A stretch of 53,709 bases of DNA, taken from the NCBI GenBank assembly GCA_902774155.1, contig CACYHF010000029.1:1-53709 (forward strand). The letters are read 5' to 3'. Both the position numbers and the translations under genes were made by a program. Shown here piece after piece: positions 14,443-40,198 of the stretch. The notes below the pieces were generated by a model, which saw nothing but the letters and a program-made list of their open reading frames with translations, did not search any database and was not told where the DNA came from. Every line of letters begins with the position of its first letter. Position 1 is the stretch's first letter. Origin of the DNA: an uncultured Bacteroidia bacterium (GTDB taxonomy: Bacteria; Bacteroidota; Bacteroidia; Bacteroidales; UBA932).

Positions 14443-14475
14443 ATTCGGAGTCACGGGAGCAGTGGTTGAACTTTA

Positions 14476-21634: not shown

Positions 21635-21682
21635 AGGTTATCAGTACTTTAATTATGTTTTTCAGTGTTTCAGGCTATGATT

Positions 21683-21690
21683 CAAATATA
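21683..21690 (-). promoter_or_regulatory. Bacteroidetes-type -7 box before phosphodiesterase gene
   Basis: On the minus strand TATATTTG fits TAnnTTTG exactly, with a T-rich stretch about 16 bases upstream in place of the -33 TTTG. Transcription would start near 21676, about 40 bases before the ATG at 21634, giving a promoter inside the operon between the two paralogues. Confidence 0.55.
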
Positions 21691-21749
21691 ACATATTTGA
21701 ACGAGAAAAAACAGGGCTTGCGCAAAACCGAAAGTGGGATTGTCAGAAA

Positions 21750-23273
21750 TCAAAGTTCGTAGAATAGCATGGAAGCCGGAAGATTGGTGACATCGATATC
21801 CGGCCCCTTCAGGCCCAGGTCTATCCAATCCCCGCCAAAAGTCTCGAAGTACTGAACCTCAAGGCGGTGGTAACCGGCGCCCAGTTCGATCCAAACCTCT
21901 TTGCTGCCGCCTCCTGGACGGTCCAGATCCCACAGCAACTGCCCATCCAGCCAGATTTTGGCGCCGTCGTCCGATTCCACCGTAAAGAAATACACGCCCT
22001 CCTTCTCAATCTTCATGGCCTCCGTTCCAAAAATGGGAGCTATACCAGTCTTCTTCACAGGAGCAGCCAGCATGTCCTCACAACTCATGAAGTCTCCCTC
22101 CTTGTAAGAATAACGCAGTCCCTGCCCCTTCGGGTTGGCTTTCACGGCCGGGAAAATAGCCGATCCCACGGGATGGAAATCCTCTTCCCTTCGGTAGGTA
22201 GGGTCGAAGGGTTCGCATTTTTCGCCGTTACCAGGGGTGAAGTCCACGCCCAGGATATCGGCGATGGTGGCGGCAAGCTGCTTGGTGTAGAAGATGCCGT
22301 TATCGGCCGTTTCTCCTTTTACCGGTACGCCTTTGCCGAAAGCCATGAACCAAGTGTCTTTGGCTCCACGGATATGGTCGCCGTGGTGGCGGAAAGCAGC
22401 GCCATTGCCCCGTCCATGATCGCAGGTGAGCAAATAGGTGGTCTTTCCCTTGTAGAATGGATCTGATTCACAATACTCTACGATGCGGCGGATGTACAGG
22501 TCCGTCCAGTGGGCGGCGTTCAGATAGAGGTCGTATCGGCCTTTATGAGCGTAGGAATCCGTATCGCCGAAACCCACATAGAACACTTTGGGGTGATCGG
22601 CCTTCAAGGTTTCCAGGGCCATGCCGAAGGTGACGCAATCCAGCCGCTCTGTGGGGCCGATACCGCCATCGGCAATGCCGGCGTCTATGTCCTCCATCAG
22701 GCGGGCCACCTCGCTGTTGGTATGAGAAGGTTCATGTCCGGCGCTGCCGGGGAAGCCGCCACGGTCGTTGTTCATGGCAAAACGGATGCTCTGCCAGGAG
22801 CTGTACATCATCACCTTCCCTTTGTAGCGGGGGTCCTGGTTCACCACCTCCAGCACGCTCACATTGGGGTTGGGAACGGGGTCGTTGCTGTTCACCCTGT
22901 CGTTGTCGGGCCATCCGCAGAACATTTCACTGTAACCGGGATAGGAGAAATGCATGGCGTTGGACACCTGCATCAGGCTGTTCTTGTTCCGGTTGCCGAT
23001 AAGATAGCCATGCTCCGGAACATAGCTCCAGACAAAAGGCATGAGGGTTTCGCGCCGCTCCTGAGGCGTTTCGCGCCAATAGGCCTGTTTCAAGGCCGAT
23101 GGATTCCGGACGAAACGGGTGCTCTCCACCAGGCCTTCATCGGCCCCGGAGAAGAGTTCCTGCCAGCGCAGGCCGTCGAATGTAATGATGACAAGCCGGG
23201 GATCGTCGTCCCCTTTATTGCAGGAGAACAGCACTGTCAGTGCCAGTACTCCCAGGAAGAAAAAACGCTTCAT
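21750..23273 (-). CDS. Alkaline-phosphatase-superfamily phosphodiesterase lipoprotein, paralogue with shortened PA14-like domain
   Basis: First gene of the degradative operon, 507 residues, with lipoprotein signal MKRFFFLGVLALTVLFSC. It is colinear with the neighbouring paralogue and keeps every metal and nucleophile motif (IITFDGLRW, FSYPGYSEM, FGDTDSYAHKG, TCDHGRG), so it should be active. Many loops differ, which argues for separate substrates rather than a fresh duplication. In the C-terminal PA14-like domain a 15-residue piece (QREDHFG to LMK in the sister) is missing: GTEAMK runs straight into IEKEG. The loss is in frame and may weaken that domain. A TATCTTTG box precedes the gene by 23 bases. 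Confidence 0.85.
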   Translation of the reverse strand: MKRFFFLGVLALTVLFSCNKGDDDPRLVIITFDGLRWQELFSGADEGLVESTRFVRNPSALKQAYWRETPQERRETLMPFVWSYVPEHGYLIGNRNKNSLMQVSNAMHFSYPGYSEMFCGWPDNDRVNSNDPVPNPNVSVLEVVNQDPRYKGKVMMYSSWQSIRFAMNNDRGGFPGSAGHEPSHTNSEVARLMEDIDAGIADGGIGPTERLDCVTFGMALETLKADHPKVFYVGFGDTDSYAHKGRYDLYLNAAHWTDLYIRRIVEYCESDPFYKGKTTYLLTCDHGRGNGAAFRHHGDHIRGAKDTWFMAFGKGVPVKGETADNGIFYTKQLAATIADILGVDFTPGNGEKCEPFDPTYRREEDFHPVGSAIFPAVKANPKGQGLRYSYKEGDFMSCEDMLAAPVKKTGIAPIFGTEAMKIEKEGVYFFTVESDDGAKIWLDGQLLWDLDRPGGGSKEVWIELGAGYHRLEVQYFETFGGDWIDLGLKGPDIDVTNLPASMLFYEL

Positions 23274-24204: not shown

Positions 24205-24241
24205 CGATAAAAAATGGAGCGGCCCGGTGAGGGGCCGCTCC
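24205..24241 (-). terminator. Rho-independent terminator of the left SusC/D arm
   Basis: A perfect 10-bp stem (GGAGCGGCCC / GGGCCGCTCC) with a 6-base loop lies 20 bases after the beta-helix gene stop and is followed on the minus strand by a T-run. The same hairpin, with one wobble pair, ends the right arm at 36578. Confidence 0.85.
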
Positions 24242-24261
24242 GAAAAGAGTATGCCGTTAGT

Positions 24262-26010
24262 TTACTGAGCCTGGTAGCAACCGACGTTGATCTTGCCGCC
24301 CGTCGCACGCGGGTTACCGTCAAGATCCTTGGTGTAAGCACCCAGGATACCGTTCACCAATCCACTGTTCTCACCGGTAGTGAGAGCCTTTCCGGCGGGA
24401 CGGAAGTCACCGTCAAGGTAGTTCACAAACACCGACGCGAACTCTTCGTTGGGAACGAAGGTGCAAGCTGCCTGAGCTGCGGTCTGCGCAGCACCGTTAC
24501 CGGCGCGGCCGATGAAGTTGGTGGCATCGGCGCCGCAGATGACATTGCTCTGGAAGATCCAGTTAGGATCGTCACCGGCCATAACGTTCATATCGCACTG
24601 CTGAACCTGCTGCTCAAGGATATACTTTGCCTGGATGGGCATGTCATAGCTGTCGGGGTTTCCGGCACCCTTGTTGGCCACACCCGGCAAGAAGTACCAG
24701 TTACCGGCCACGAGGTTGTTCACGAACTCAATGTGGGTACCACCGTTACGGTACATGATGCAGCTCCAAGGAGAGGAAGTAGCGGAACTACCGTCACGCC
24801 AGTTCACGTTGTCCACGAAGGTGCAGTTCACAATCTGACCCGAGACACCGGCCTGACCGTGCAGCGCACCGGTGTAACCGTATTCAGCGATGGAAGCATT
24901 TCCATGGAAGAGGGTATTCACCGCAACGATGGAAGTACCGGCACCGTTGATGGCCACACCACCGCCGTGGGCATCGGCCTTGTTGTACTCGATGATACTG
25001 TTGGCGAGGATGAGGTTGTCACCCTTCTGTTCGGTGCAGAAGATGCCGCCGCCCTGGCCGGAATTGACGCAGTAAGCGACGCGGCACCATTCAACCGTGA
25101 CCGTACCGCTGACGGCCAGGCCGCCAGGAGTACCGTTGACCAGTTCGAATCCATTGATGGTGGTGCTGTTTCCGGCACCCACTCTGCCATCCACGCAAGT
25201 AATCTTGTCGTTACCGGTGATCACGCTGCGATAGTCGAAGTCCTGATCATTGAAATCGTCAACCCAGCCGCCGCTCAACGTGACGTTGGGACGGAGTTTG
25301 ATGGGGCCGTTAAAGATGGCACCGGCCTCCACACGCACCTCGGCGAATTCCTTGGCACCGTCGATGGCGGCCTGCAGGTCCTCACCGGCATTCACGGTGA
25401 CAGGCGGGATGATACCGGTGGTATTGGAACCATAAACAATGTCCCCTTCGGTGGAGGTTACAAATCCCCATACGAAATAGTCCTTGCCGATTTCCAGACC
25501 TTCAATGGTAATCAGGTTGCCGGAAGTGGACGGTTTTCCGCTGGCCATCTGCTTCTTTCCCTTGGACATATCGTTCTCCTTGCCGTAAATCACGCCCCAT
25601 CCCTCATAGTCATCGATGAAACTGGTGGAGAAGTTCAGGCGGATGTCGGCCTCACCGTTACCGTTACGGGCAAGGGCGGTGGAAACGGAAGCATCCAGGC
25701 TATGGGCTTTCTGGTTCACAATAGCCTTCTGATTGGAGCCCGCAATGGTAAATTCCGCACGACGGATAACACCGGAGGTATTACGGCGCAGGGTGAAGGT
25801 GGCCTTGTTCCCCGACTGAGAGAACTCAAGCCAAGGATACAGCATATCGGGCGTGAGGGTGCCGGGAACATCCATTGTGGCCGTATGGGGCGTGTAATCC
25901 TCAATCAGTCGATAGGGATTCTGCTCTATGTAACGGTCTGTCTTGGCGCAACTTGCCACCAGGAAGACGATACCGGCGAGTGCAATCAATATCTTTTTCA
26001 TTTTGATCAT
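24262..26010 (-). CDS. Surface lipoprotein with beta-helix and choice-of-anchor-type C-terminus, third gene of the left SusC/D arm
   Basis: Lipoprotein of 582 residues (signal MKKILIALAGIVFLVASC). The N-terminal ~215 residues look like two beta-sandwich modules (BACON-like with TFTLRRNTSG, then fibronectin-like with GLEIGKDYFVWGFVTS). Residues about 220-560 form a right-handed parallel beta-helix with stacked short repeats (NGFELVNG, VEWCRVAYC, ILANSIIEYN, VAVNTLFHGN, IVNCTFVDN). The end DLDGNPRATGGKINVGCY is that of choice-of-anchor Q proteins. In PULs the third gene after SusC/D is commonly a surface glycan-binding protein, which is my best guess; a lyase cannot be excluded. It has no counterpart in the right arm. 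The start may be nine bases later, at 26001. Confidence 0.8.
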   Translation of the reverse strand: MIKMKKILIALAGIVFLVASCAKTDRYIEQNPYRLIEDYTPHTATMDVPGTLTPDMLYPWLEFSQSGNKATFTLRRNTSGVIRRAEFTIAGSNQKAIVNQKAHSLDASVSTALARNGNGEADIRLNFSTSFIDDYEGWGVIYGKENDMSKGKKQMASGKPSTSGNLITIEGLEIGKDYFVWGFVTSTEGDIVYGSNTTGIIPPVTVNAGEDLQAAIDGAKEFAEVRVEAGAIFNGPIKLRPNVTLSGGWVDDFNDQDFDYRSVITGNDKITCVDGRVGAGNSTTINGFELVNGTPGGLAVSGTVTVEWCRVAYCVNSGQGGGIFCTEQKGDNLILANSIIEYNKADAHGGGVAINGAGTSIVAVNTLFHGNASIAEYGYTGALHGQAGVSGQIVNCTFVDNVNWRDGSSATSSPWSCIMYRNGGTHIEFVNNLVAGNWYFLPGVANKGAGNPDSYDMPIQAKYILEQQVQQCDMNVMAGDDPNWIFQSNVICGADATNFIGRAGNGAAQTAAQAACTFVPNEEFASVFVNYLDGDFRPAGKALTTGENSGLVNGILGAYTKDLDGNPRATGGKINVGCYQAQ

Positions 26011-26021
26011 CTGTTTAAAGT

Positions 26022-27686
26022 TTACTGCCAGGACGGAGGATTCTTAAGTTTGCCGGCAGACTTGTTGAGCTGCTCGGAAGGATAAGGGAAGGTCATGAAC
26101 TTCTCGTTCCAGGGAAGTTTGTTGACATAGTCCTCATAGTAACCGGGTTCCCAGGTGGAGGTGGGATCGGTACGGTCGGCATAGTGACGGACGCGGGGAC
26201 GGCTGTTGAGCTCCTTCAGGGCCAGAGCCTTGATCTCCGGAGCGCCGGCATAGGCCCAGCGCTTGCAGTCGTAGGCGTGGTCGTTGGCCATCTCGAAGGC
26301 CAGTTCGCAACGACGCTCGTGATAGAGGTCGGTCCAGGTGGCAGCGCCGGCGAGGGGCTGCAGGTGCGAACGCTCGCGGATGGCATTGATGTCCTTCGCT
26401 GCGGCAGCACCGTTACCGGCGACGAGGTTGGCCTCGGCGCGGAGCAGCAGGCAGTCCGCAAAGCGGATGAGCGGCCAGTTGATCAGGGTGCAAGGCCAGT
26501 CAGGGTTGTCCAGGACCCAGCCACGGGCGATGCAGTCGGCCGGAGCGAAAGGCTGCAGGAACTTGTAGATCTGGAAACCGGCTTCCACGTTCACGGAAGA
26601 CCAGAATACGCGGTCTTCACCGAAGAACGGGAACACGTCGCCGTATTCCAGGATGGTGGCAGCCAGACGTTCGTTCTTTACGCCGCCCACATTATCCTTG
26701 GCCATTTCTTCGTAGATGTCCAGGGTGGGTTTGAACTGGCCCCAGCCGTTGAACTTACCCCAGCCCTTGTCCTCCAGGGAGATACCGGGGAACTCCACGG
26801 AACCGTTACCCGCGTTGTTCTGACCACCCTTGGAAGGATAGCCCCAGCAGTATTCCTGGGTGAAGAACTTGCTCACATCCGGGGCGAAGAGGTCGGTGAA
26901 CACCGGATGCAGGGCGCGGCCATAAGTGGTTTCAAGCTTGTTCACGCAGGTGATCACGTTGGGCCACTGGCTCTTGTCCCAGGTGGCCCAGTAAGCATAC
27001 ACCTTGGCCATCACAGCCACGGCGCTCTGCTTGCAGGCGCGGCCGATGTTGACGTTGTCGTAATCCTCTACGCGCGGGAGCAGTTCTTCGGCCTTCTGGA
27101 GGTCTGCTATGATGAGTTCATAGTTCTTCATCACGGTTTCCTGCTGCTCGGGAATCTCGTTGTTGTAGCCGCCTTCCACGGTCTCATAGGCCACGAACGG
27201 AACGCCCAGGTCCTTGGTGCCGTAACGGTAAGCGATGAGGAAATGATAATAGGCGCGCATGAAGTAAGCCTCACCCAGGGAGCGGGTTTCGACAGCCGTA
27301 AGCGCGGTGTTTTCCTTCTTATTCAAAAGAGAGTTAATGATCCAGTTACAACGGTTCATACCCTCCATATAGGCACCTTTGAAAACGCCCGTTATGGGGC
27401 CTTCATCGCCGGTATATTCGAAGGTGGCCAGGGTGTTGAAGGAACGGGTCTTACCCCAGACAATATCGGAAGCAACAGCCTGTTCCCAATAGAACTCACG
27501 GCCCATGAAGCTCTCCTGCGGCAGGCGGGCATAGATGCTCTTGACGGCATCGATGGCCTGTTGATCCGTCTGGAAGAACGCGTCCTCAGTGGGAGAGCCC
27601 TTGGAGGAATAGTCCAGGAATTTGGCACAGGAGGAAACACTCAGGATGCCAAGGACTGCAAATACGATGGAAATATATTTTTTCAT
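26022..27686 (-). CDS. SusD-family nutrient-binding lipoprotein (left arm)
   Basis: Lipoprotein of 554 residues (MKKYISIVFAVLGILSVSSC) that caps its partner SusC at the cell surface and binds the glycan. SusD features are the N-terminal helix AIDAVKSIYARL, the TPR-like YFMRAYYHFLIAYRYGTKDLGVPFV, IRFADCLLLRAEA and LYHERRCELAFE. It begins 12 bases after the SusC stop, exactly as in the right arm, and the two SusD proteins are close over their whole length. The ATG at 27686 is used; a GTG two codons upstream is possible. Expression depends on the orientation of the central segment if that segment inverts. Confidence 0.95.
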   Translation of the reverse strand: MKKYISIVFAVLGILSVSSCAKFLDYSSKGSPTEDAFFQTDQQAIDAVKSIYARLPQESFMGREFYWEQAVASDIVWGKTRSFNTLATFEYTGDEGPITGVFKGAYMEGMNRCNWIINSLLNKKENTALTAVETRSLGEAYFMRAYYHFLIAYRYGTKDLGVPFVAYETVEGGYNNEIPEQQETVMKNYELIIADLQKAEELLPRVEDYDNVNIGRACKQSAVAVMAKVYAYWATWDKSQWPNVITCVNKLETTYGRALHPVFTDLFAPDVSKFFTQEYCWGYPSKGGQNNAGNGSVEFPGISLEDKGWGKFNGWGQFKPTLDIYEEMAKDNVGGVKNERLAATILEYGDVFPFFGEDRVFWSSVNVEAGFQIYKFLQPFAPADCIARGWVLDNPDWPCTLINWPLIRFADCLLLRAEANLVAGNGAAAAKDINAIRERSHLQPLAGAATWTDLYHERRCELAFEMANDHAYDCKRWAYAGAPEIKALALKELNSRPRVRHYADRTDPTSTWEPGYYEDYVNKLPWNEKFMTFPYPSEQLNKSAGKLKNPPSWQ

Positions 27687-27698
27687 ATGCACGGTCGG

Positions 27699-30600
27699 TT
27701 AGTAGTTGATCTTAACACCGATAGCGAACACGCGGGAAACCGGATACTTGATGGTATCGTAGCCACCCACTTCCGGATCCATACCGGAGTACTTGGTGAA
27801 GGTAAGGAGGTTTTCTCCACTGAGATACACGCTGCAAGTGCTGTTACGTCCGGCGAAATGAGGAACCTTGCGGAGAACGTTGGTGAGGTCGTAACCGATG
27901 GTCACGTTCTTCAGGCGGAGGTAGCTGCCGTCCTCAATGTAGAAATCGGAAGGCTGGCTGTAGTTGCCGTTCGGGTCGTTGGTGGAGAGGCGAGGCAGAT
28001 AGGTGTGCGGGTTCTCAGGGCTCCAGGAATTGAAGATTTCCTTGGCGCGGGAGAAGTTACCTTCCACGTCGGAAAGGATACGGGACTTACCCACATAAGC
28101 GATCTTGTTGCCGGCTACGCCCTGGAACATTACGTCTGCATACAGGCCCTTCCAGTTGAAACCGAAGGAGAAGGCAAAGGTCTGCTTGGGCATGGCAGAA
28201 CCTACATACTGACGGTCGTTGGTGTCGATCTTGCCATCGTTGTTGAAATCCACGAACCGGAGGTCACCGGGCTGGGCGTTGGGCTGGATGAGCTTGCCGT
28301 CCTTCTGGTGGTCATAAACGTCCTCCCAACTCTGGAAGATACCGTCCGTCTTGATCACGAAGAAGGAGTTGAGCGGCTGGCCGGGTTCGCTCTGGTAGAG
28401 CCACGGCACGCCGCCCCAGTCACCGCCACCGGTCCACTTGCCGGGGTTGCCTGCATCATCCAGGATACCGGTGGAAATCACCTGGTTGCGGTTGTAGGCA
28501 AAGTTGCCGTTGATATAGTAGCTGAAATCCTTGTTAATGGTATCCTTCCAGCCAATTGCCAGTTCAATACCACGGTTGGCAATTTCACCCTGGTTCACCT
28601 TCATGGCGTTACGGCCGATGGTGACCGGCCATCCCATGGTCTGGTCCTGAATCAGGTTGAAGGTGCGCTTGTTATAATAGTCAACGCTCACGGTGAGGCG
28701 ATCCTTGAAGAGATCGATATCCAGACCGGCGTCAATGGTCTCAGAGGTTTCCCAGGTGAGTTCATTGTTGATGGCATTGGCCGGATACCAGAAGGTTCCG
28801 AAGGTCTGGCCCGCGCCGATACCGTAGTTGGGAGCCTCGTTCCAGTTGGAACTGCTCAAGGTATTGGACTTGTAGTTCATGGGAATGGAACCCAGGTTAC
28901 CTACACGACCCCAGGAAGCACGGACCTTGAGGAGGGTCACCACATCGTTCTTGGGGAAGAAAGGTTCACTGGAAGCCTTCCAAGCACCGGTGACGGCCGG
29001 GAAGTCTCCGTGGTTATGGGCGTCCGGCAGACGGCCGGCGTAATCCCGACGCCAGGAGGCGGTAACGAAATAACGGTCGTCGTAACTGTAGGAAGCACGG
29101 GCCACGAAGGCGATATTGCGGTCCGGACCATCATAGTAGTCGCTGTTGAGACTGCTGCTGGACGCGAACTTGATGAACTGCATCTTCTCAGATTCATCGG
29201 CCAGGCCTACGCCATAACCGCCAAAGCCTTGCTTCTCCCAGTGATTCATAGTGAAAGCGCCCAGGACACCCACGCTGTGTTTGCCGAAGGTGCGGTCGTA
29301 GGTGATGGTGCTTTCGCTTATCCATTTGAAGGTACGGGAAGATCCCAAGTTCAGCGAATTGGTGGTAGAAGGCTTACCTACCTCCGGACGCATGGGGCTG
29401 AAGCTCTTGGAATTGGCGTTATTCACGTCAATGGTGAAGAGGCTGGAGAGCTTGAGGCCCTTGATAGGAGTGATGTGAAGGCCGGCGGTGTTCCAGAAGT
29501 CCACGTTGTGGCTCCATTCGGTGCTGGCATACAGCATACGCAGGGGGTTCACCACGTCACCGTGGATATCGGCGAAGTTGGAACCGTACTTGGCAATGTA
29601 CTCGGGATCTTCAGTGGTGGTACCACCAAAGGAACCAGCATAAGGACCGGCCGAGGCATAAGCCTCTGCGGACGGCGGCATCCAGAGGGCGGAAAGGAGA
29701 ACACCCGTGTGGGCCGAACTGTCGTCTACGCTGCGGCCCCAGCCGTCATCATAGGACATAGTGTCCGTGATCTTGATCCACTTGTTCAGGTCATATTCTC
29801 CCTTGAAGCGGATGGCCAGGTTCTTCTTGTAGGTGTTTTTCAGGACACCCTGGTTATCCTGGTAGGAGAAAGTAAGGCGGCTCTTGAACACATCCGTACC
29901 GTAGTTGAGGGTTACGCTGTGACGCTGATAGGGAGCCGTGCGGAAAACCTCGTCAATCCAGTTGGTGCGCTGTACGCCCACCCAGGGGTTGATGGTGGTA
30001 TCCCAACCGGAAGGCAGCGAGATACCGGCGTTCTGATGGGAGATGGTCTTCATCTGAATCTCTTCCTGAGCCGTGAGGGGCTGAGGGAGATTGTAGGCGC
30101 TGCGCACACCGGCCACCAAGTCGTATTCCACATGAATACCCTTGTTGGCTTTCTTGGTGGTTACCAGGATTACACCGCCGGCGCCGGAGGTGGCACCATA
30201 GATAGCGGCGGAAGCAGCGTCTTTCAGGACTACGATGCTCTCGATTTCGTTCATGGAATAGACGGCGGCACCAGGCACGCCGTCCACAACCCACAGCACG
30301 GAGTCTCCGTTACGGGAGCCCTGGCCACGGATGAGCAGACTGGCACCGCTGTTGGGGTTACCACCGTCGTTGGAAACCACCACGCCGGGGATCTGGCCTT
30401 GCAGCATCTGGGTGACGGAAGTCACGGGACGCTCGGCAATCTTTTCAGGGGAAGCCACGATACCCACGGAAGCGGACAGGTCCTTCTTCTTGGTCTGGGC
30501 ACCGTAACCCAGGGCTACGGCTTCCTGCAGGACTTCGGCGTCTTCCACCAGGATAATGTTGATGTTGGCACGTCCGTTCACGGGGACCTGCTGGGTTACA

Positions 30601-31598
30601 TAGCCCAAGCAGGAGACCTCGAGGACTGCGTTGGACGGAACAGTGATGGAATAGTTACCATCCACGTCCGTGACTGCGTTGGCGTTGCCGGACAGCACCA
30701 CGGCACCCACGATGGGTCCCACGGCATCCGACACGGTTCCACGCACTGTCAAGTTCTGGGCTTGGTAAATCTGTGTGGTGGAAAGCTGGGTGTGTCCCAG
30801 GAGTTTACTGGTAGTGTAGATATCGGCCCCCATGGTAAGGAGGAGTGTGGCAAAGCTGTGCCGGGCAGTATGGAAAGTTACCTTCTTCTGGATTCCAGCT
30901 TGGATGGCCCATTCCCGAATGACGGCATTGGCCCAAGCGGGAGTGGGTAGGGAGAACACGATGCCGCAATTCTTTTTCGGGGGAAGAAAAGATTGGGCCG
31001 ATTCACTCAGAGGCAGGAAAACCCATTCTCCGGTTTTGACCATTTGCTTGGAGATTATCCATAGAGGAGCGTCTGTTTGGATGTCCTCCCATTGTAAGGA
31101 TTTGACATCACTCCACCGGAGACCGCAGAAACAACTGAACAGAAACGCGTTTTTTACGGTTTCATTCCGGCATCGGGTCAGCAGCAGCTTTTGGATTTCT
31201 TCATACGTTAGATAAATCCGTTTGGGAGAAGTAGTTTTTAAAGTGAAGTCCAGTTCGGAACAAGGATTGGAAGGGATGAGTCCGTTGCGTACGGCCTTAT
31301 TCAAAACGGTTTCTAATTGAGTAAGCAGCTTTTTCTGTGTGTTTGGGGACAGTGGTCGGGGACTCCGGGTCCTGGCGTTATCGGCCTTCGAAAGATATAG
31401 GGCAAATTTCTGGCAGAAACTTTGGCCGATATGGCTCAGATAAGGATCCTTTATGCCCCATACTTCCTCATATTGTGTCAGATGTTTCTTTAAACCATTG
31501 AAGCTATCGGCAGTTCCTTGAGAAAGAGTTCCCTTCATTTCTTCTATCCATCGAGTTAGGCGAATTCTTTTATAATAATATAGTTTAAGGTAGGACAT
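27699..31598 (-). CDS. Tyrosine recombinase fused in frame to SusC TonB-dependent receptor (left arm, probably the silent state)
   Basis: One open frame of 1299 residues joins two unrelated proteins. Residues 1-278 are a tyrosine recombinase: an N-terminal SAM-like core-binding part, then catalytic Arg in FCGLRWSDV, Lys in [26 protein letters not shown] and the nucleophile Tyr278 in TTQIY (codon 30765-30767). Immediately after Tyr the frame continues as [14 protein letters not shown], the normal start of a mature SusC. The carboxypeptidase-like domain, the plug ([21 protein letters not shown]) and the full beta-barrel follow, ending [13 protein letters not shown]. The signal peptide is replaced by recombinase sequence, so this SusC cannot be exported as it stands. 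A 211-bp inverted repeat shared with the right SusC starts 23 codons after the SusC part begins. The recombinase also lacks the usual tail after its Tyr. Confidence 0.9.
30477..30687 (-). repeat. Left copy of the inverted repeat bounding the central segment
   Basis: Matches 31900-32110 in reverse complement with about nine differences in 211 positions by hand alignment. Identity starts abruptly at CAACGCCAACGCAGTCAC and includes perfect runs of about 56 and 46 bases. It encodes NANAVTD through TKKKDL of SusC in the same frame in both copies. Within it CCAACGCAGTC occurs twice as a direct repeat. Confidence 0.9.
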
Positions 31599-31899
31599 GG
31601 GTCAAATAAATAAGTATTATTATCAAAAATTAAAGTATTTTTATTTTGAACTGAATGAAAAACTTTTGTTCGTGTTCATTTTGTTGCGTATTTGTGCATT
31701 TCTTGAAATATTTTTATAACTTTGAACATAATTAAAACCGCATGCCTATTGATGACGCAATTTAAAAGCAAAGTGCACGAACTACCACCTAGACTATAAA
31801 TAGTTGTACCAACACTAATTACATTAACTTTTAACCAATCATTATGATTTCCAAAAAACTGTTCGGTTTTGCCGCTGCACTCATGTGCCTGGTGGCAAC
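30688..31899. mobile_element. Putative invertible segment: recombinase gene plus promoter and signal peptide
   Basis: This 1212-bp stretch lies between the two inverted repeat copies. It holds the recombinase coding part, the start of the left SusC, a divergent intergenic region, the promoter and the signal peptide of the right SusC. Inversion at the repeats would keep both frames open: promoter and signal peptide would join the left SusC, and the recombinase would join the right SusC. Only one orientation is seen here, so inversion itself is a prediction. Confidence 0.65.
31717..31724 (+). promoter_or_regulatory. Promoter -7 box for the expressed SusC/D arm
   Basis: TAACTTTG, an exact TAnnTTTG, with TTTG at 31691-31694 (spacing 22) as a possible -33 element. 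The start would be near 31731, leaving an AT-rich leader of about 110 bases before the ATG at 31844. It is the only clear promoter in the 245-bp gap and lies inside the putative invertible segment. Confidence 0.7.
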
Positions 31900-34800
31900 C
31901 AACGCCAACGCAGTCACGGACATGGATGGTAACTATTCCATCACTGTTCCGTCCAACGCAGTCCTCGAGGTCTCCTGCCTGGGCTATGTAACCCAGCAGG
32001 TCCCCGTGAACGGACGTGCCAACATTAACATTGTCCTGGAAGAGGATGCCGAAGTCCTGCATGAAGCCGTAGCCCTGGGTTACGGTGCCCAGACCAAGAA
32101 GAAGGACCTGAGTGCCTCCGTGGGTATTGTGAACAATGCCGACGCCCTGGCCTCCCGTCCTGTAACCTCCACGGAAGGCATGCTCCAGGGCCAGATCCCC
32201 GGTGTGGTGATTTCCGCCGACGGTGGCTCCCCGGATGCCACGCCCAACATCATTATCCGTGGCCAGGGCTCCCGCAACTCCAACGGTGAGCCTGTGCTGT
32301 GGGTAGTAGACGGCGTTCCCGGCGCTCCCATCACTTCCATGAATGACATCGAGAGCATCGTCGTCCTCAAGGATGCTGCCTCTGCCGCTATCTATGGTGC
32401 TACTTCCGGCGCCGGCGGTGTTATCCTCGTGACAACCAAGAAGGCCAATAAGGGTATTCACATCGAGTACGACCTGGTAGCCGGTGTCCGCGCCGCTTCC
32501 AATGTCATCCGGCCTCTGAATGCCCAGGAGGAACTGGAGATGCGCCGCATCTCTTATTCCAACGCCGGTCTCACCCTCCCGATGGGCTGGGATACCAGCA
32601 AGAACCCCTGGGTGGGCACCAACCGCACCAACTGGATGGACGAGATTTTCCGCACCGCTTTCTATCAGCGTCACTCCGTCACCCTCAACTACGGAGGCGA
32701 GAACCTCAAGAGCCGTCTCACCTTCAGCTACCAGGACAACCCCGGTGTGCTGATCAACACCTTCAATAAGAACCTGGGCGTCCGCTACAATGGCGAATAC
32801 GACATCAACAAGTGGATCAAGATCACCCAGTCGCTCTCCTTCTCCGACGACAACAGCCGCGGTACGGATACCGGTTCCGCCTACACGGGTACCATCCTTT
32901 CCGCCATCTATATGCCCGGTAGCGCCGAGGCTTACGCCACGGCCGGTCCTTACGCCGGTTCTTACGGTGGTACTGTTACGGAAGATCCCGCCTACATTGC
33001 CAAGTACGGCAGCAACTTCGCAGACATCCACGGTGATGCCGTGAACCCCCTGCGTCTTCTGCTGGCAGACAACCGCTACAACCACACCAGCAAGTTCTGG
33101 AGCACCACCGGTCTCCATATCAGCCCCGTCAAGGGCCTGAAGATCAGCAGCCTCTTTACGGCCAACCTGGAGTCCCTGTGGTACAAGAACTTCCATCCCA
33201 GGCGTCCCGAAATCGGCAAGCCCGATGGCGGTAACGGCCTTAACTACGACACCCGCCGCAACTTTGGCTGGCGCAGTGAAAACACCATCACCTACGATCG
33301 CACCTTTGGCAAGCACACCATCGGCGCCCTGGGTGCCCTCACCTTCAACCGTGACACCAACAGAAGGCTCATCGCTTCCGGTAACACTTTCCAGGACGAG
33401 GCTTTCAACGTCCAGTATCTGGACCACGCCGCCTCCAAGGATGCCAAGGATTATTATGATGTAGACGCCAATGTGGCTCTGGTGGCCCGTGCTTCCTACA
33501 GCTTCGATGACCGTTACTTTGTAACTGCTTCCTATCGCCGGGATTATGCCGGCCGTCTGCCTCAGGGTCACAACTATGGAGACTTCCCGGCCGTGACCGC
33601 TGCCTGGAAGGTTTCCAGCGAGCCTTTCTTCCCGAAGAACGACTATGTGAACCTCCTCAAGGTCCGTGCTTCCTGGGGTCGAGTAGGTAACCTGGGTTCC
33701 ATCACTTGGGGCTACAAAAGTGCCAACCTGAGCAGCAGCACCTGGAACGAAGGTTCCATCTATGGCGTTGAAAACGGTTCTTACTGGGGCACTTTCTGGT
33801 TCCCCAAGAACTCTGTGAACCAGAACCTCACCTGGGAAACTTCCCAGCAGTTTGACGCCGGTCTGGATATCGACCTGTTCAAGGATCGTCTTTCCCTGTC
33901 CATCGACTACTACAACAAGCTCACGTACAACCTGATCCAGGAACAGACTATGGGTTGGCCCCAGACCATCGGCCTCAATCCTATGATGGTGAACCAGGGC
34001 CAGATCCGCAACACCGGTGTTGAACTGGTGGCTGCCTGGAGCGATTCCGTGAACAAGAACTTCAACTACCACGTTTCTGGAAACTTCGCCTACAACAAGA
34101 ATATGGTTGTTTCTACGGGCGTGGTTGACAATGAAGGCAATGCCGGTAAGTGGACCGGTGGCGGAGACTTCCGTCTGGTCCCCTGGATCTACCAGTCCGA
34201 GGCTGGTCAGCCCCTGAATTCCTTCTATGTGATCAAGACCGCCGGTATCTTCCAGAGCGATGCCGAGGCTGCCGCTTACGTCAAGGACGGCAACCGCATC
34301 CAGCCCAACGCCGTAGCCGGTGACCTCAAGTTCGTCGATTTCAACAACGACGGCAAGATTGATGACAAGGACCGCCAGTATGTTGGCAGTGCCATGCCCA
34401 AGTTCACCTATGCCCTCAGCGGCGGTTTCGAGTGGAAGGGTCTCAGCGTAGACCTGATGTTCCAGGGCGTCGCCGGCAACAAGATTGCCTATGTGGGTAA
34501 GCAGATGATCCTCTCCGACGTGGAAGGTAACTTCAACCGTGCTGCCGCCATTCTGAATGCCTGGAGCCCCACCAACACCGGTTCCTCCATTCCCCGTCTT
34601 TCCAAGAACGATCCCAACGGCAACTTCTCCACTCCTTCCGATTATTATATCGAGGATGGCTCCTACCTCCGTCTGAAGAACATCACCATCGGTTATGACC
34701 TTACCAATGTTCTCCGCAAGGTTCCTCATTTCGCCGGCCGCAATAGCACCTGCCGTGTCTATGTGAGCGGTGAGAACCTCTTCACCATCACCAAGTACTC

Positions 34801-34906
34801 CGGCATGGATCCGGAAGTGGGAATCAGCGGCAACACGCCGGGCTTTGACACCATCAAGTATCCGGTTTCCCGCGTATTTGCTTTCGGTATCAAACTGAAC
34901 TACTAA
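31844..34906 (+). CDS. SusC-family TonB-dependent receptor (right arm, expressed state)
   Basis: Outer-membrane glycan importer of 1020 residues. The signal peptide starts MISKKLFGFAAALMCLV and should be cut after ANA (about residue 23). The mature chain begins VTDMDGNYS, so the first half of the usual carboxypeptidase-like domain (the [11 protein letters not shown] stretch found in the left copy) is absent. Plug signatures ([22 protein letters not shown]) and the barrel to VSRVFAFGIKLNY are intact. It is close to the left SusC throughout; the most marked changes are in extracellular loops and near the substrate side. It is followed after 12 bases by its SusD. There is no sigma/anti-sigma signalling extension. 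Uptake needs TonB-ExbBD, not in the window. Confidence 0.94.
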   Translation: MISKKLFGFAAALMCLVATNANAVTDMDGNYSITVPSNAVLEVSCLGYVTQQVPVNGRANINIVLEEDAEVLHEAVALGYGAQTKKKDLSASVGIVNNADALASRPVTSTEGMLQGQIPGVVISADGGSPDATPNIIIRGQGSRNSNGEPVLWVVDGVPGAPITSMNDIESIVVLKDAASAAIYGATSGAGGVILVTTKKANKGIHIEYDLVAGVRAASNVIRPLNAQEELEMRRISYSNAGLTLPMGWDTSKNPWVGTNRTNWMDEIFRTAFYQRHSVTLNYGGENLKSRLTFSYQDNPGVLINTFNKNLGVRYNGEYDINKWIKITQSLSFSDDNSRGTDTGSAYTGTILSAIYMPGSAEAYATAGPYAGSYGGTVTEDPAYIAKYGSNFADIHGDAVNPLRLLLADNRYNHTSKFWSTTGLHISPVKGLKISSLFTANLESLWYKNFHPRRPEIGKPDGGNGLNYDTRRNFGWRSENTITYDRTFGKHTIGALGALTFNRDTNRRLIASGNTFQDEAFNVQYLDHAASKDAKDYYDVDANVALVARASYSFDDRYFVTASYRRDYAGRLPQGHNYGDFPAVTAAWKVSSEPFFPKNDYVNLLKVRASWGRVGNLGSITWGYKSANLSSSTWNEGSIYGVENGSYWGTFWFPKNSVNQNLTWETSQQFDAGLDIDLFKDRLSLSIDYYNKLTYNLIQEQTMGWPQTIGLNPMMVNQGQIRNTGVELVAAWSDSVNKNFNYHVSGNFAYNKNMVVSTGVVDNEGNAGKWTGGGDFRLVPWIYQSEAGQPLNSFYVIKTAGIFQSDAEAAAYVKDGNRIQPNAVAGDLKFVDFNNDGKIDDKDRQYVGSAMPKFTYALSGGFEWKGLSVDLMFQGVAGNKIAYVGKQMILSDVEGNFNRAAAILNAWSPTNTGSSIPRLSKNDPNGNFSTPSDYYIEDGSYLRLKNITIGYDLTNVLRKVPHFAGRNSTCRVYVSGENLFTITKYSGMDPEVGISGNTPGFDTIKYPVSRVFAFGIKLNY
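31900..32110 (+). repeat. Right copy of the inverted repeat bounding the central segment
   Basis: Reverse complement of 30477-30687 with about 96% identity. It begins inside the codons for the signal-peptide end (NANA) of the right SusC. The direct repeat CCAACGCAGTC lies at 31905-31915 and 31953-31963. Confidence 0.9.
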
Positions 34907-34918
34907 TAGACTGTGGAT

Positions 34919-36535
34919 ATGAAAAAGTATATCATTCTCGCTCTGATCGCAGCAGGCACCCTCAGCGTTGCCTCCTGTGCGAAATTCCTGGATGTGAAGG
35001 CCGAAGGTTCTCCTACCGCAGACCAGTACTTCCAGAACGACCAGCAGGCCGGCCGTGAACTCTATTGGGAGCAGGCCGTGGCCAACGATATCGTCTGGGG
35101 CCGTACCCGTGGTTATCCTACCCTGGCCACTTTCGAGTATACCGGTGACGAAAGCCCTCTTCGCAGCGTTTTCGGCAATGCCTATACCGAGGGTATGAAC
35201 CGTGCCAACTGGATCATCCAGCAGCTTCTTAACAAGGAGCTGCAAAACATGGCTCTTACTCCCGTTGAAAAACGCAGCCTGGGTGAAGCCTACTTCATGC
35301 GTGCCTACTGGCACTTCCTCATTGCCTACCGTTACGGCACCAAGGACCTGGGTGTTCCCTTCGTGGCCTATGAGACCGTGGAAGGGGGTTACAACAATGA
35401 GATTCCCGAGCAGCAGGCTACGGTGATGGAGGACTACAAGCTCATCATCAAGGACCTCCAGATGGCCGAGGAAATCCTTCCTAAGTTTGAGGAGTACGAT
35501 GCCGCCGACCGCGGACGCGCCCACAAGGCTGCCGCCGCTGCCGTGATGGCCAAGGTGTACGCCTATTGGGCAACCTGGGACAAGACCCAGTGGCCCAATG
35601 TGATCACCTGCGTGAATCGCCTGGAAACGGATTATGGCCGTGACCTTCATCCCGTATTCACGGACCTCTTTGCACCCGATGTGACCAAGTTCTTCACCAA
35701 GGAGTACTGCTGGGGTTATCCTTCCAACGGTTCCAACAACGGTAAGTCCGGTGGTTCCATCGAATTCCCCGGTGTCTCCCTGGAGAACAAGGGCTGGGGT
35801 AAGTTCAATGGCTGGGGCCAGTTCAAGCCCACCTACGACCTCTATGCCGAAATGGCCAAGGACAATATCGGTGACACCAAGAACGAGCGTCTGGCCGCCA
35901 CTATGCTGGAGTACGGTGACAAGTTTATGTACTTTGGTGAGGAGCGTGAGTACTTCTCCACTTCCGATGTAGAGTCCGGCTTCCAGATCTACAAGTTCAT
36001 GCAGCCCTTCGCCCCGGCCGATCCCCAGGGCGCCGGTTACCTGCTGGACAATGCCGACTGGCCCTGCACCCTCATCAACTGGCCCATCATCCGCTTCGCA
36101 GACTGCCTGCTGCTCCGTGCTGAGGCTTACCTCGTAGCTGGAAATGGTGGAAAGGCCAAGGAGGACATCAACCGCATCCGCAACCGTTCCCATCTGACTC
36201 CGCTGACGGCCGATGCCACCTGGAAGGACCTCTATCACGAGCGCCGCTGCGAACTGGCTTTCGAAATGGCCAACGACCACGCTGCAGACTGCAAGCGCTG
36301 GGCATACTCGGGTGCTCCTGAAATCCAGGCCCTGGCCCTGGAAGAGTTGAACAACCATCCTCAGGTCCGTCACTATGCAGACCGTAGCGATCCTCATTCG
36401 TTCTGCAGCATCGGTGATTATGAGGACTACAAGAACCAGCTCAAGTGGAACGACAAGTTCATCACCTTCCCTTATCCTTCCGAGCAGATCAACAAGTCTG
36501 CCGGCAAGCTTAAGAACCCTCCGACCTGGAACTAA
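34919..36535 (+). CDS. SusD-family lipoprotein (right arm) with an N-terminal 17-residue deletion
   Basis: Lipoprotein of 538 residues (MKKYIILALIAAGTLSVASC). It keeps YFMRAYWHFLIAYRYG, IRFADCLLLRAEAYL and LYHERRCELAFE and pairs with the right SusC. Compared with the left copy it lacks IDAVKSIYARLPQESFM: FQNDQQA runs directly into GRELYWEQ. That helix is one of the best conserved parts of SusD proteins, so the loss is unusual and could impair packing or SusC contact. The cut is exactly 51 bases and in frame. The ATG at 34919 is used; a GTG two codons upstream is possible. Confidence 0.94.
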   Translation: MKKYIILALIAAGTLSVASCAKFLDVKAEGSPTADQYFQNDQQAGRELYWEQAVANDIVWGRTRGYPTLATFEYTGDESPLRSVFGNAYTEGMNRANWIIQQLLNKELQNMALTPVEKRSLGEAYFMRAYWHFLIAYRYGTKDLGVPFVAYETVEGGYNNEIPEQQATVMEDYKLIIKDLQMAEEILPKFEEYDAADRGRAHKAAAAAVMAKVYAYWATWDKTQWPNVITCVNRLETDYGRDLHPVFTDLFAPDVTKFFTKEYCWGYPSNGSNNGKSGGSIEFPGVSLENKGWGKFNGWGQFKPTYDLYAEMAKDNIGDTKNERLAATMLEYGDKFMYFGEEREYFSTSDVESGFQIYKFMQPFAPADPQGAGYLLDNADWPCTLINWPIIRFADCLLLRAEAYLVAGNGGKAKEDINRIRNRSHLTPLTADATWKDLYHERRCELAFEMANDHAADCKRWAYSGAPEIQALALEELNNHPQVRHYADRSDPHSFCSIGDYEDYKNQLKWNDKFITFPYPSEQINKSAGKLKNPPTWN

Positions 36536-36541
36536 TCGGAT

Positions 36542-36566
36542 AGATTCCCGGTCAAGCCGGGAATGA
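36542..36566 (+). repeat. Dispersed GTCAT...ATC palindromic repeat after SusD
   Basis: AGATTCCCGG, a short loop TCAAG and CCGGGAATGAC form a strong hairpin six bases after the SusD stop. It has the same end signature as the copies inside the GH106 and metG genes. Confidence 0.8.
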
Positions 36567-36577
36567 CAATACTTTTC

Positions 36578-36608
36578 GGAGCGGCCCCAATGGGTCGCTC
36601 CTTTTTTT
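36578..36608 (+). terminator. Rho-independent terminator of the right SusC/D arm
   Basis: GGAGCGGCCC, loop CAAT, GGGTCGCTCC, then a run of seven T. The stem matches the terminator of the left arm at 24216-24241, showing that the inverted duplication reaches both ends of the locus. Confidence 0.9.
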
Positions 36609-36696: not shown

Positions 36697-38328
36697 ATGA
36701 AAAATAATTACCTTTTGCGGTCCTTGGCGCTAAGTGCGCTGGTGATGCTGCCGCTGCTGCTTTCTGCACAAGAGGTGAGCGTGAACGGCCTCCAAGCAGG
36801 AACCGTCCGTGACCTCTGGCGCCAGGAGAACATTCCTACTGACGCCATCTACATCATCCCCACCCACGGGGTGCTGTATGTAAAGGTTCAAAAACCGGCC
36901 GGCCCCATGGATCTCATTCCCGCTCCGGTGGCGTATACCGTGCTCCCCGGGAGCATTCGAAGCAACGCATTAACGCAACTGCCCCAGGAGGTTATCCTTT
37001 CGGAAGAAGCGCTCCGTCGCCGACTGGAAGGACGGGAACTGGCTCCCTGGCAGCTCAAATCGGCCTATTGGCTGGAAGTGGGGAAAAAAGGTGTTAAGAT
37101 GGAGGCGGCCGATGAGGAAGGCGCATTTTATGCCCGCCAGACACTGAACATGATGACCCGCCTGGGCGATGAAGTGACCTGCTGCACCATCCTGGACTGG
37201 CCGCGGTTCCAGTACCGGGGCCTTATGCTGGACGAAAGCCGGAATTTCCAGGGGAAAAGCTTTGTACTGAAGCAACTGGAAATGATGGCCCTTCTCAAGA
37301 TGAACCGTTTCCATTTCCATCTGGTGGACAATCCGGGGTGGCGCCTGCAGATAGATGCCTACCCACGGCTCACCCAGCTCACCGCCTGGCGTCCTGAACC
37401 GGATTTCTGGGACTGGGAAAAGGATGAAACAGGAGGCGATTTCCTGGAAGAAGGGACGCCAGAGGCCTATGGTGGCTATTATACCAAGCAGGATATCGCT
37501 GAAATCCTGGCGTTTGCGGCCGAAAGGCACATCGAGGTGATTCCTGAAATCGAGATGCCCGGGCACAATTATGAAACCCGCGCCGCTTATCCGGAACTCT
37601 CCTGTTCCCTGCCTGGTGGCGGACCGGACGCCTGGGAACTGTGTCCCGGCAAGGAGAGCACCTACGAGTTTCTGGAGAAAGTGCTGCTGGAGGTATTTGA
37701 CCTGTTCCCTTCCCAATATGTCCATATCGGTGGCGACGAAGCCGGCAAGCGCAACTGGGAACGTTGCCCGGACTGCAAGGCCCGGATGAAAGCCGAAGGT
37801 CTCCAGAGCGTGGAAGAACTGCAGAGTTATCTGATTAAGCGGATGGAGCGATTTGCACACGGACACGGCAAGCGCATCATCGGCTGGGACGAGATCCTGC
37901 AAGGGGGCCTGGCCCCGGATGCCACCGTGATGTCCTGGCGGGGAACCGAGGGAGGCCTGCGGGCCGTTGCAGAAGGCCACGACGTGATTTTCACGCCCAC
38001 CACTTACTGTTACCTGGATTATCACCAGGATCCCAACCAGTACCGGCCTGCGGGGAAGTATCTTCCCCTGGAGAAGGTATACGCCTTCGATCCCATGCTG
38101 GAAGGCATCTCCAGGGCCGATGCCCACCATGTCCTGGGTTTGCAGGGCAACCTGTGGACCGAGTGGGTCCATGAGGCCTGGCACGCGGAGATGATGCTCT
38201 ATCCCCGCGCCTTCGCCATTGCCGAAACGGGCTGGACGCCAGCCGATCAAAAGGATTATGCCGACTTTGCACGCCGGGCGGCCGCCTTTTCAGCAGTCGC
38301 CCGGACGATGGGGTATACCGTATATTAA
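36697..38328 (+). CDS. GH20 beta-N-acetylhexosaminidase with a GH27 tail at its N-terminus
   Basis: Exported enzyme of 543 residues (signal ends LLSAQ). Residues about 70-165 are the GH20b-type domain (PAPVAYTVLPG), and residues 170-540 are the catalytic barrel with YRGLMLDESRNF, FHFHLVDNPGW and the catalytic pair Asp347-Glu348 in HIGGDEAG. It removes terminal beta-GlcNAc or beta-GalNAc. Residues 30-66 (GLQAGTVRDLWRQ through HGVLYVK) are not part of GH20. They copy the extreme C-terminus of the GH27 enzyme at the other end of the window, including 24 identical bases (36802-36825 against 798-821). This looks like a deletion chimera in which a second GH27 gene lost everything but its signal and tail. 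Confidence 0.92.
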   Translation: MKNNYLLRSLALSALVMLPLLLSAQEVSVNGLQAGTVRDLWRQENIPTDAIYIIPTHGVLYVKVQKPAGPMDLIPAPVAYTVLPGSIRSNALTQLPQEVILSEEALRRRLEGRELAPWQLKSAYWLEVGKKGVKMEAADEEGAFYARQTLNMMTRLGDEVTCCTILDWPRFQYRGLMLDESRNFQGKSFVLKQLEMMALLKMNRFHFHLVDNPGWRLQIDAYPRLTQLTAWRPEPDFWDWEKDETGGDFLEEGTPEAYGGYYTKQDIAEILAFAAERHIEVIPEIEMPGHNYETRAAYPELSCSLPGGGPDAWELCPGKESTYEFLEKVLLEVFDLFPSQYVHIGGDEAGKRNWERCPDCKARMKAEGLQSVEELQSYLIKRMERFAHGHGKRIIGWDEILQGGLAPDATVMSWRGTEGGLRAVAEGHDVIFTPTTYCYLDYHQDPNQYRPAGKYLPLEKVYAFDPMLEGISRADAHHVLGLQGNLWTEWVHEAWHAEMMLYPRAFAIAETGWTPADQKDYADFARRAAAFSAVARTMGYTVY

Positions 38329-38347: not shown

Positions 38348-38882
38348 TTATTTCGAGTCTCTTAAGGCGTTCCGGGTGGAGTCGTCGTCATCGGCGCTCG
38401 ACTTACCCAAAAGACGGAGGACTTCCGGCGCCAGGGGGCTGCCTTCCTTCACCAGAGCGTCCAGCAGCTGCTTGTTGTGCGCTCCGCCCATCTGGATAGC
38501 GGCAAATACAGCGGCTTCGCCAGCCTCGCCGGGCGTGAGGCTAGTGTCAACGAGCTTCTGCAAATCCGTCAGTTTATTCCGGCCGATCCAATAAAGGACA
38601 TCGGCCTTGGCGGTGTCCGGAAGGGTGGGGAACAGTTTCTTGACCGTCTTGACAAGGGCCTTGGGGCCGGCGGTTTCATCGGCATACTCCAAAACGGCGT
38701 TGGCGTAAATGCGGTTGCCGCTGGTTAGCGCCTCCGTCCGAAAGCAGTTTCCAGGCGTCCTGGCACTTCAGGTGCGTGGCTTTTTCCGTGGGGAAGGCCG
38801 TCAGGGGCCTGTCCAGGGTATTCTGCCCCCAGACGGCAAGGGTCAGGGACAGCGCTGCAAGGAGGGATACTATCTTTTTCAT
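38348..38882 (-). pseudogene. Helical-repeat exported protein, frameshifted
   Basis: Two overlapping frames make one protein. The first gives a signal peptide (MKKIVSLLAALSLTLAVWGQ) and LDRPLTAFPTEKATHLKCQDAWKL. After about KLLSDGG the sense continues in another frame as ALTSGNRIYANAVLEYADE, then helical HEAT-like sequence (PKALVKTVKKLFPTL, PLAPEVLRLLG). A one-base indel near 38720-38740 is the simplest cause: either a real mutation or a sequencing error. If repaired the protein would have about 177 residues. The start overlaps the Gfo/Idh stop by ATGA. Somewhat similar leaders occur on longer exported proteins with a DUF1080 domain, so this may be a shortened relic; that is a guess. Confidence 0.65.
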
Positions 38883-40198
38883 AGGCTCATATAAGATGCC
38901 CACGGGGTGCGCATGGGCTGGTTAATGAGGGCGTTGGCCGCATCGTCACCAATGAAGCGGCAGGTATCAGGATCAAAGTTCAGGGTGCGGTTCAGGCGCA
39001 AGGCGGCCGATCCGATATTCACGATGGTGCAGCTGTGGTGGCCGATCCTTTCGTCCAAAGCGAAATGCTGCCGGGTGCGCACGCAATCCAGGAAATCCGT
39101 ATGGCGGGGTGCCGGGGCGGGCAGTTCGTTCAGGAAGGCCTGCGGGTTCTGTACGCCCGGAATGTCGCATTCGAAGCCCTGATACACCTTGCCGTTGGGA
39201 CCTTCGATATAAGGCACCTTGCCGGACGACTCGAATCCTTCGCCCTCCAGGATGATCCGGCAGCCATCGGCATACGTGTAAGTGATTTTGCGCCAGATAC
39301 CTACGGCATCCGCGTCTTGTACGGGGGCATCCACCTCCACCTTTACAGGGTAGGTGTCATCCTTTCCTAAAATATACTGTACAGGGTCTATGTAGTGCTG
39401 GCCCATGTCTCCCAGGCCGCCGCTTTCGTAGTCCCAGTAGCCGCGGAAGGTCTGGTGCACCCGATGCGGATGATACGGCTTGTAAGGCGCCGGTCCCAGC
39501 CACATGTCGTAGTCCAGTTCTTCGGGGATGGGCTGCTGCACCAGGCCGGTCTTACCGGTCCAGTAAAACTTCCACGCAAAGCCCGTGGAGGCCGATATGC
39601 GTACGGTGAGGGGCCAGCCCAGCACACCGCTGTCCACCAGTTTCTTCAGGGGTTCCACCGTGGTGCCCAGCCCGTAGAAGGTATCCGTAAAGCGGAACCA
39701 GGTGTCCAGGCGGAAGATGCGGCCATAGTCGTGGACGGCCTTCACCACCTTTTCTCCTTCGCCGATGGTACGGGTCATGGGTTTTTCGCAGAAGATGTCC
39801 TTCCCGGCCTTGGCGGCCTCTACGGCCATGATGCCGTGCCAGTGGGACGGCGTGGCAATGTGCACGATGTCCACGTTGGGGTCGTGTACCAGGTCCCGCC
39901 AGTCCTTATAGGGCTGCAGCTGCGTGTTGAAACGCTCTACGCCCGCATCCAGCGCCTTCCGGAGATGGTACTTATCCACGTCGCAGACCGCTACCAGGCG
40001 GCATCGCTCATCCGACGCAAAATGCAAGCCGCTCATGCCGATACCCCCGGTACCGATGATTCCCCGCGTAAGCTGGTCACTGGGCGCCGTGTAACGCGTG
40101 TTACCGCCCAGTTTTCCCAGCACTTCCCGGGGCAAAATGGTGAAAAGGCCCACTCCCAGGCCGGCCTTTTTCAAGAATTCCCTTCTGTTTTGTGCCAT
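38879..40198 (-). CDS. Tat-exported Gfo/Idh/MocA-family oxidoreductase
   Basis: Protein of 439 residues. The N-terminus RREFLKKAGLGVGLF is a twin-arginine signal, so it is folded with its nucleotide cofactor and then exported. The Rossmann domain shows RGIIGTGGIGMSG, VAVCDVD and CEKPM; the C-terminal part (DMWLGPAPYKPY, GYWDYESGGLGDMGQHYIDP) is that of exported glycoside oxidoreductases. In Bacteroidetes such enzymes oxidise sugars at C3 so that DUF1080 proteins can release the aglycone, and the GH16-DUF1080 protein in this window would be a natural partner (inference). It shares an ATGA overlap with the frameshifted gene downstream. Minus-strand TATATTTA at 40221-40228 is a near-match promoter box. 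Confidence 0.88.
   Translation of the reverse strand: MAQNRREFLKKAGLGVGLFTILPREVLGKLGGNTRYTAPSDQLTRGIIGTGGIGMSGLHFASDERCRLVAVCDVDKYHLRKALDAGVERFNTQLQPYKDWRDLVHDPNVDIVHIATPSHWHGIMAVEAAKAGKDIFCEKPMTRTIGEGEKVVKAVHDYGRIFRLDTWFRFTDTFYGLGTTVEPLKKLVDSGVLGWPLTVRISASTGFAWKFYWTGKTGLVQQPIPEELDYDMWLGPAPYKPYHPHRVHQTFRGYWDYESGGLGDMGQHYIDPVQYILGKDDTYPVKVEVDAPVQDADAVGIWRKITYTYADGCRIILEGEGFESSGKVPYIEGPNGKVYQGFECDIPGVQNPQAFLNELPAPAPRHTDFLDCVRTRQHFALDERIGHHSCTIVNIGSAALRLNRTLNFDPDTCRFIGDDAANALINQPMRTPWASYMSL

Follow-up and report, generated by a model that had tools for sequence, protein, structure and literature searches.

Organization of the locus

Pairs of SusC and SusD proteins determine which glycans are imported by bacteria such as the uncultured Bacteroidales member (GTDB lineage UBA932; assembly GCA_902774155.1) considered here. 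The window, 53,709 nucleotides, is the entire contig CACYHF010000029.1 (C29), and it contains a locus at which Pfam and NCBIfam identify two alternative SusC/SusD pairs around a tyrosine recombinase gene. The genome assembly of 2.43 Mb comprises 88 contigs and is 92% complete and 3.6% contaminated. An earlier note, made from the sequence alone, had described the locus as two SusC-SusD arms diverging from a 1.2-kb centre, and this description is confirmed by the open reading frames and by the Pfam and NCBIfam assignments (Table 1).

The recombinase is directed to the left and is continuous with the left SusC, as the earlier note had said, in a single frame of 1299 amino acids (27699-31598, minus strand). 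The recombinase part of this frame matches Pfam Phage_integrase at residues 130-282 (E 2.4e-20) and Phage_int_SAM_5 at residues 16-113 (E 5.6e-13); the SusC part matches CarbopepD_reg_2 (285-360) and Plug (371-474) in Pfam, and the SusC/RagA family (284-1298) in NCBIfam. A rightward signal peptide and a promoter-like motif, corresponding to those that had been proposed, are also present. A pattern scan between the recombinase and the right SusC found TAACTTTG at 31717-31724, which we take to be a Bacteroidota-type -7 box, together with TTG at 31692. The right SusC, on the plus strand, starts with the signal peptide at 31844, followed by NANAVTDMDG.

The centre is bounded by an inverted repeat, reported earlier as 211 bp and about 96% identical. 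A column comparison gives 95.7% identity over this core (nine differences), and a repeat search extends the arms to 232 nt that are 94% complementary (14 of 232 sites differ) with a spacer of 1212 nt. When an inversion at the repeat is made in silico (30688-31899 or 30477-32110), both long frames stay open, in agreement with the earlier claim that such an inversion breaks no frame.

Table 1. Features of the SusC/SusD locus (positions in the window)
Feature	Position	Strand	Basis
Lipoprotein-like third gene, left arm	24262..26010	-	LVASC start (by eye); counterpart in G264 (L093)
SusD1, left arm	26022..27692	-	Pfam SusD_RagB and SusD-like_3
SusC1 without signal peptide, in a single frame with the recombinase	27699..30764	-	Pfam, NCBIfam
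Inverted repeat, left arm	30456..30687	.	Repeat search (30477-30687 in the earlier note)
Junction J1, recombinase to SusC1 mature start	30764..30765	.	L007 alignment
Tyrosine recombinase, last codon is the catalytic tyrosine; L007-type tail missing	30765..31598	-	Pfam and L007 comparison
Promoter-like motif TTG ... TAACTTTG, toward SusC2	31692..31724	+	Pattern match
Candidate recombination site in leader, TAAATAGTT-GTACCAA-CACTAATTA	31797..31821	+	Inverted pair in L007
Signal-peptide segment (MISKKLFGFAAALMCLVAT)	31844..31900	+	Also found ahead of SusC1 in L007
Junction J2, signal peptide to shortened SusC2 start	31900..31901	.	Comparison with L007 and relatives
Inverted repeat, right arm	31900..32131	.	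Repeat search (31900-32110 in the earlier note)
SusC2, right arm, without 24 residues (or close variants) seen in relatives	31844..34906	+	
SusD2, right arm	34913..36535	+	Pfam
GH20 glycoside hydrolase, final gene of right arm	36697..38328	+	Pfam Glyco_hydro_20, E 4.1e-109

The opposite orientation in a sister species

Does the centre occur in the opposite orientation elsewhere? Scanning genome_contigs with the recombinase gave two loci, L007 (99% identity) and a distant one from a Clostridia record (L008, 26%). L007 belongs to a separate species-level genome, and its content agrees with G264:C140 (the G264 genome is 76% complete). The alignment of L007 has three main parts: window 28025-30764 forward, 31900-30765 reversed, and 38373-39649 forward (in two pieces). 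L007 therefore has collinear flanks around an inverted centre, and the flipped arrangement that the earlier note had proposed to seek in related genomes is found, with lossy junctions. The breakpoints fall at 30764/30765 and 31900/31901. They had been expected at the edges of the repeat, which does not hold for the left one.

In L007 the promoter and signal peptide face SusC1, which has a full signal peptide. The recombinase ends in YAQIIDEKKVHAVRLLDKLL followed by a stop, 19 residues beyond the catalytic tyrosine. The SusC2-SusD2-GH20 arm is missing from the corresponding position of L007, the GH20 gene included, according to the alignment. As three pieces are missing from the window (the tail of the recombinase, the start of SusC2, and 9 bp at the signal peptide of SusC1), the idea that L007 is its exact flipped form was rejected.

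Among the 39 inverted pairs of L007, the longest (29 nt) has one copy just before the SusC1 start and the other just after the recombinase stop. Both copies contain GTACCAACACTNATTA between imperfect palindromic arms, and GTACCAA is a possible 7-bp core, arms and core having been read by eye. In a weak test, the pair scores 23 of 29 matches against a maximum of 21 in 40 shuffles. The crossover in L007 is likely to have been at this short inverted pair in the 5' leader, and not at the coding repeat, to which the earlier note had assigned it. The window genome has a single copy of the leader-site core, with up to one mismatch allowed. A comparison by eye of L186 with L187 and L190, which differ in having or not having a second arm, places their divergence near the leader stretch TACTAATTA, which may hold the recombination site of those loci.

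Recurrence of the layout in the genus

The genus is represented by more than 400 genomes. Recombinases divergent from SusC were found among loci with SusC2 homologues. Twenty-two relative loci with a recombinase, from 15 genomes, were examined together; 12 of them came from 18 fetched stretches, the other six stretches (L193, L195, L196, L198, L199, and L200) having been dropped for want of a SusC. There are two recombinase lineages. One is window-like and consists of the enzymes of the window, G264, and G194 (at 43-46% identity); the other is typified by the G049 enzyme, to which the recombinases of about 19 of the 22 loci are 41-76% identical.

SusC flanks the recombinase on both sides in four of the 22 loci (L131, L188, L192, and L194), and in two more (L130 and L186) the second arm runs to the end of the contig. 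In these two-arm relatives, the OFF SusC is equipped with a leader, a start codon, and a signal peptide of its own. The distance from the recombinase stop to the OFF start codon is 50, 59, 66, 76, and 80 bp in L131, L188, L192, L194, and L186, respectively, and about 193 bp in L130; the space left for a second promoter is therefore small in five of the six loci. L130 seems, by eye, to have a promoter-like stretch on the 3' side of the recombinase, but the pattern scan is negative on either side.

Five one-arm loci retain stubs of a second arm behind the recombinase. In L145 and L148 a signal peptide is followed directly by the end of a protein resembling that encoded at window 24262-26010, L150 has the start of a SusC fused to the end of a SusD, L146 has a 43-bp piece of SusC, and L183 has a SusC piece that is out of frame. 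No claim is made that in-frame deletion of an arm is the rule, as L145, L146, L148, and L150 are in frame and L183 is not (n=5). Relics of the last recombinase domain lie beside or near SusC in L132, L139, and L142 (genomes G358, G194, and G356) and represent decayed cassettes.

The recombinase-SusC fusion

The earlier note had interpreted the fusion of the recombinase with the OFF receptor as a design. This interpretation is not supported: the recombinase is closed by a stop of its own ahead of any SusC start in all 22 relative loci, a count that is informative for the six with a second arm and the five with a stub. Fusions were sought in 101 relatives, then in 400 genomes of the genus by DNA and 400 by protein. 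Among the matches listed, the only close relative of the recombinase is that of G264, followed by the G358 relic and enzymes of at most 49% identity, and no recombinase outside the window lies in an open frame longer than 593 amino acids. The J1 and J2 strings have zero matches in viral_contigs.

The recombinase tails were compared in a set of 67 loci, many of them repeating one gene. Only the window recombinase (L009, L100) continues into SusC. In the other loci for which a tail is shown, the stop lies 18-57 residues past the tyrosine position, or 131 residues in the relic L139; L018 has a cysteine at the tyrosine position. The recombinases of L131 and L136 belong to the other lineage and are covered in the 22-locus set as L131 and L150.

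At J1, the window recombinase diverges from that of L007 directly after the tyrosine codon and continues as the mature start of SusC1; the window has neither the tail and stop of the recombinase nor the leader and signal peptide of the left arm. At J2, a signal peptide ending in VAT is joined to NANAV, skipping 29 codons relative to SusC1 of L007. Between the signal peptide and the J2 point, relatives of SusC2 carry a further 24 residues (QNLTVRGTV...VVLSG). The CarbopepD_reg_2 match begins at profile position 1 in the fusion and at position 21 in SusC2, in agreement with a shortened SusC2 start. From these comparisons, the fusion and the shortened start are most likely derived scars at the ends of the cassette, or else an assembly error. 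The fusion would require that the recombinase tail, the second copy of the site, and the left signal peptide were all lost; set against the lost arms and relics in relatives, end losses of this kind are not strange.

The motif ACCAA occurs at both junctions (30760-30770 and 31895-31905) and also within the leader core GTACCAA, which may be chance. This would be consistent with the recombinase having acted at secondary sites; a crossover at the motif, however, would break the frame. Crossover at ACCAA as a route back to L007 was rejected, since a flip there shifts the frame (worked out by hand). A flip at 30765-31900 preserves both frames but leaves SusC1 three codons shorter than that of L007.

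Exchange and selection in the two arms

The inverted repeat stands out from the rest of the two receptors: SusC1 and SusC2 have identities of 0.98 and 0.89 in the two blocks (100 columns each) belonging to the repeat, which is above background, as the remaining blocks reach only 0.45-0.84. Relative to L007, the left copy in the window has 14 differences and the right copy 20. Ten changes are common to both, which suggests that the two SusC arms exchanged sequence after the split from L007. The SusC starts of L188 and L192 are clearly homogenised; L186, whose second arm is cut, shows only a high-identity SusC start.

The ratios of nonsynonymous to synonymous divergence (dN/dS) are 0.084 for SusC1 against L007 (913 codons), 0.056 for SusD1 against G264, 0.084 for the recombinase, 0.265 for the lipoprotein gene at 24262-26010 against G264, and 0.117-0.152 for SusC2 and SusD2 against G359 and G388. 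The values for SusC1 and SusD1 indicate that the silent arm is not decaying. Synonymous divergence (dS) between the species is 0.037 for the recombinase (window 30765-31598 versus L007 3055-3885), 0.156 for SusC1, 0.200 for SusD1, and 0.508 for the lipoprotein gene. The low value for the recombinase looks as if the cassette had recently been exchanged or moved.

The third gene of the left arm had been described as encoding an extra beta-helix lipoprotein. Its lipobox-like start, identified by eye, is in keeping with a lipoprotein, and the protein has zero Pfam family matches. Genes for GH106, GH3, GH92, and PA14-domain proteins adjoin the left arm on the minus strand (11407-23273); this gene set, together with the left arm, suggests a polysaccharide utilisation locus.

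Proposed mechanism and alternatives

The locus probably belongs to a local family of SusC/SusD inversion switches with two arms. In such a switch, a cassette consisting of a promoter back to back with its own tyrosine recombinase would lie between two divergent SusC/SusD operons. Inversion of the cassette would aim the promoter at one importer and leave the other silent behind the recombinase. The inversion would be performed by the cassette's own recombinase, with crossover at the leader site (core GTACCAA), and expression would follow orientation. A switch between two importers, as claimed in the earlier note, is supported by the opposite orientation in L007 and by the recurrence of the layout in the genus. 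The same two observations speak against the presence of two ordinary paralogous importer operons between which a recombinase gene happened to land, all the more as the layout recurs with a second recombinase lineage. Operons of the SusC1 type (G409 and G155) and SusC2 type (G359, G388, G162, and G003) without a recombinase do occur elsewhere, and would suit such a chance landing, which we nevertheless regard as most improbable.

Several observations weigh against a switch of this kind. The sole pair of opposite orientations is between species, not within one population, and is unclean, with 9 bp, the recombinase tail, and the SusC2 start lost and L007 lacking the right arm. Similar leaders precede SusC genes that have no adjoining recombinase, so the leader pair may partly be shared leader sequence. 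A -7 box on the 5' side of the recombinase is found in only 11 of 21 relative loci, with TTG in six of 21, and the full promoter motif occurs on the 3' side in three of 21. The recombinase of L194 is split into two pieces; the SusC starts of this locus are not homogenised, and those of L131 lack a clear contrast.

Is the window copy still able to flip? Scars at the cassette ends would have removed the second site and the recombinase tail, and the window copy may therefore be locked, probably facing SusC2 permanently, except that homologous recombination through the 211-bp repeat may still flip the cassette. A once-active switch that is now broken, in which an irregular inversion with loss of the ends fixed the promoter on SusC2 and put an end to flipping, is a possible account, if a less probable one than membership of the proposed switch family. 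The absence of the second site copy from the genome and the lost recombinase tail favour it, as do the relics beside SusC in other genomes and the five lost-arm stubs. SusC1 and SusD1 show no sign of decay, and the repeat copies seem to have exchanged sequence after the split from L007, both of which speak against a broken switch but may just mean that the break is recent. A serious alternative, though a rather improbable one, is that J1 and J2 are assembly errors; the actual locus would then be a two-arm switch of the ordinary kind, having a stop, leader, and signal peptide behind the recombinase. The genome is fragmented into 88 contigs, contigs of relatives break in or at the inverted repeat (L130, L183, and L186), and the fusion was not found elsewhere among the loci examined. 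Against this, there is no long shared stretch at the junctions (none visible at J1, about one base at J2), both junctions preserve the frame, and the contig extends more than 20 kb leftward and 20 kb rightward.

A functional fusion, with the coding repeat as the crossover site and the recombinase translated in either state as the head of the OFF receptor, agrees with both frames staying open in either state after repeat inversion and with the homogenised repeat copies. It is very unlikely, given that it occurs in none of the 22 relative loci nor in the other loci of the 67-locus comparison. It would also leave the recombinase without the tail of 18 residues or more that follows the tyrosine in relatives, the silent SusC without a signal peptide, and both ON receptors without 24 residues of the N-terminal domain. 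We give hardly any credence to the more specific proposal that the fusion is real and used in the lineage of the window, with crossover now taking place in the SusC coding repeat instead of at the leader site. If this were true, the recombinase would be made only as the head of a silent receptor, and both ON receptors would have a shortened N-terminal domain.

Relation to known inversion systems

In Bacteroides fragilis, Tsr0667 acts as a shufflon on three SusC/SusD clusters and nine other regions (PMC4747536, PMC11852207). As described there, that system has in common with the present one a tyrosine recombinase, DNA inversion, and alternative SusC/SusD importers. By contrast, each locus here seems to carry its own recombinase within the segment and to have two arms only; as regards shufflon features, the window has just two arms and its genome one leader core. 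Invertible promoters of gut Bacteroidales control capsule, S-layer, and other surface loci (PMC12632263, PMC12548429, and PMC10939037, the last of which also reports invertible regions near susC/susD). There, too, the promoter is flanked by inverted repeats and would turn genes on or off. Here the recombinase is part of the segment as well, and a full operon lies on either side, so that the OFF state of one is the ON state of the other. Intragenic inversions (Chanin 2024, as cited in PMC12548429 and PMC12632263) likewise have inverted repeats within coding sequence, whereas the likely crossover in the relatives studied here is in the leader, ahead of the start codon.

A recombinase-SusC fusion is not described in the available parts of the openly licensed papers PMC11852207, PMC12632263, PMC4747536, PMC12548429, PMC8375218, PMC12118408, and PMC10939037. 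Likewise, no account of a toggle that is self-contained, has a recombinase of its own and two full arms, and recurs across a genus was found in the portions of the openly licensed literature consulted. The general mechanism is already known in B. fragilis; what seems less usual is a self-contained two-arm toggle repeated across a genus. The copy in the window illustrates that a conspicuous fusion frame can arise as a scar or as a product of assembly. A compact cassette that carries its own recombinase and would choose between two full importers, recurring with two recombinase lineages in one genus, offers a ready set for examining how such toggles arise, lose an arm, and become locked.

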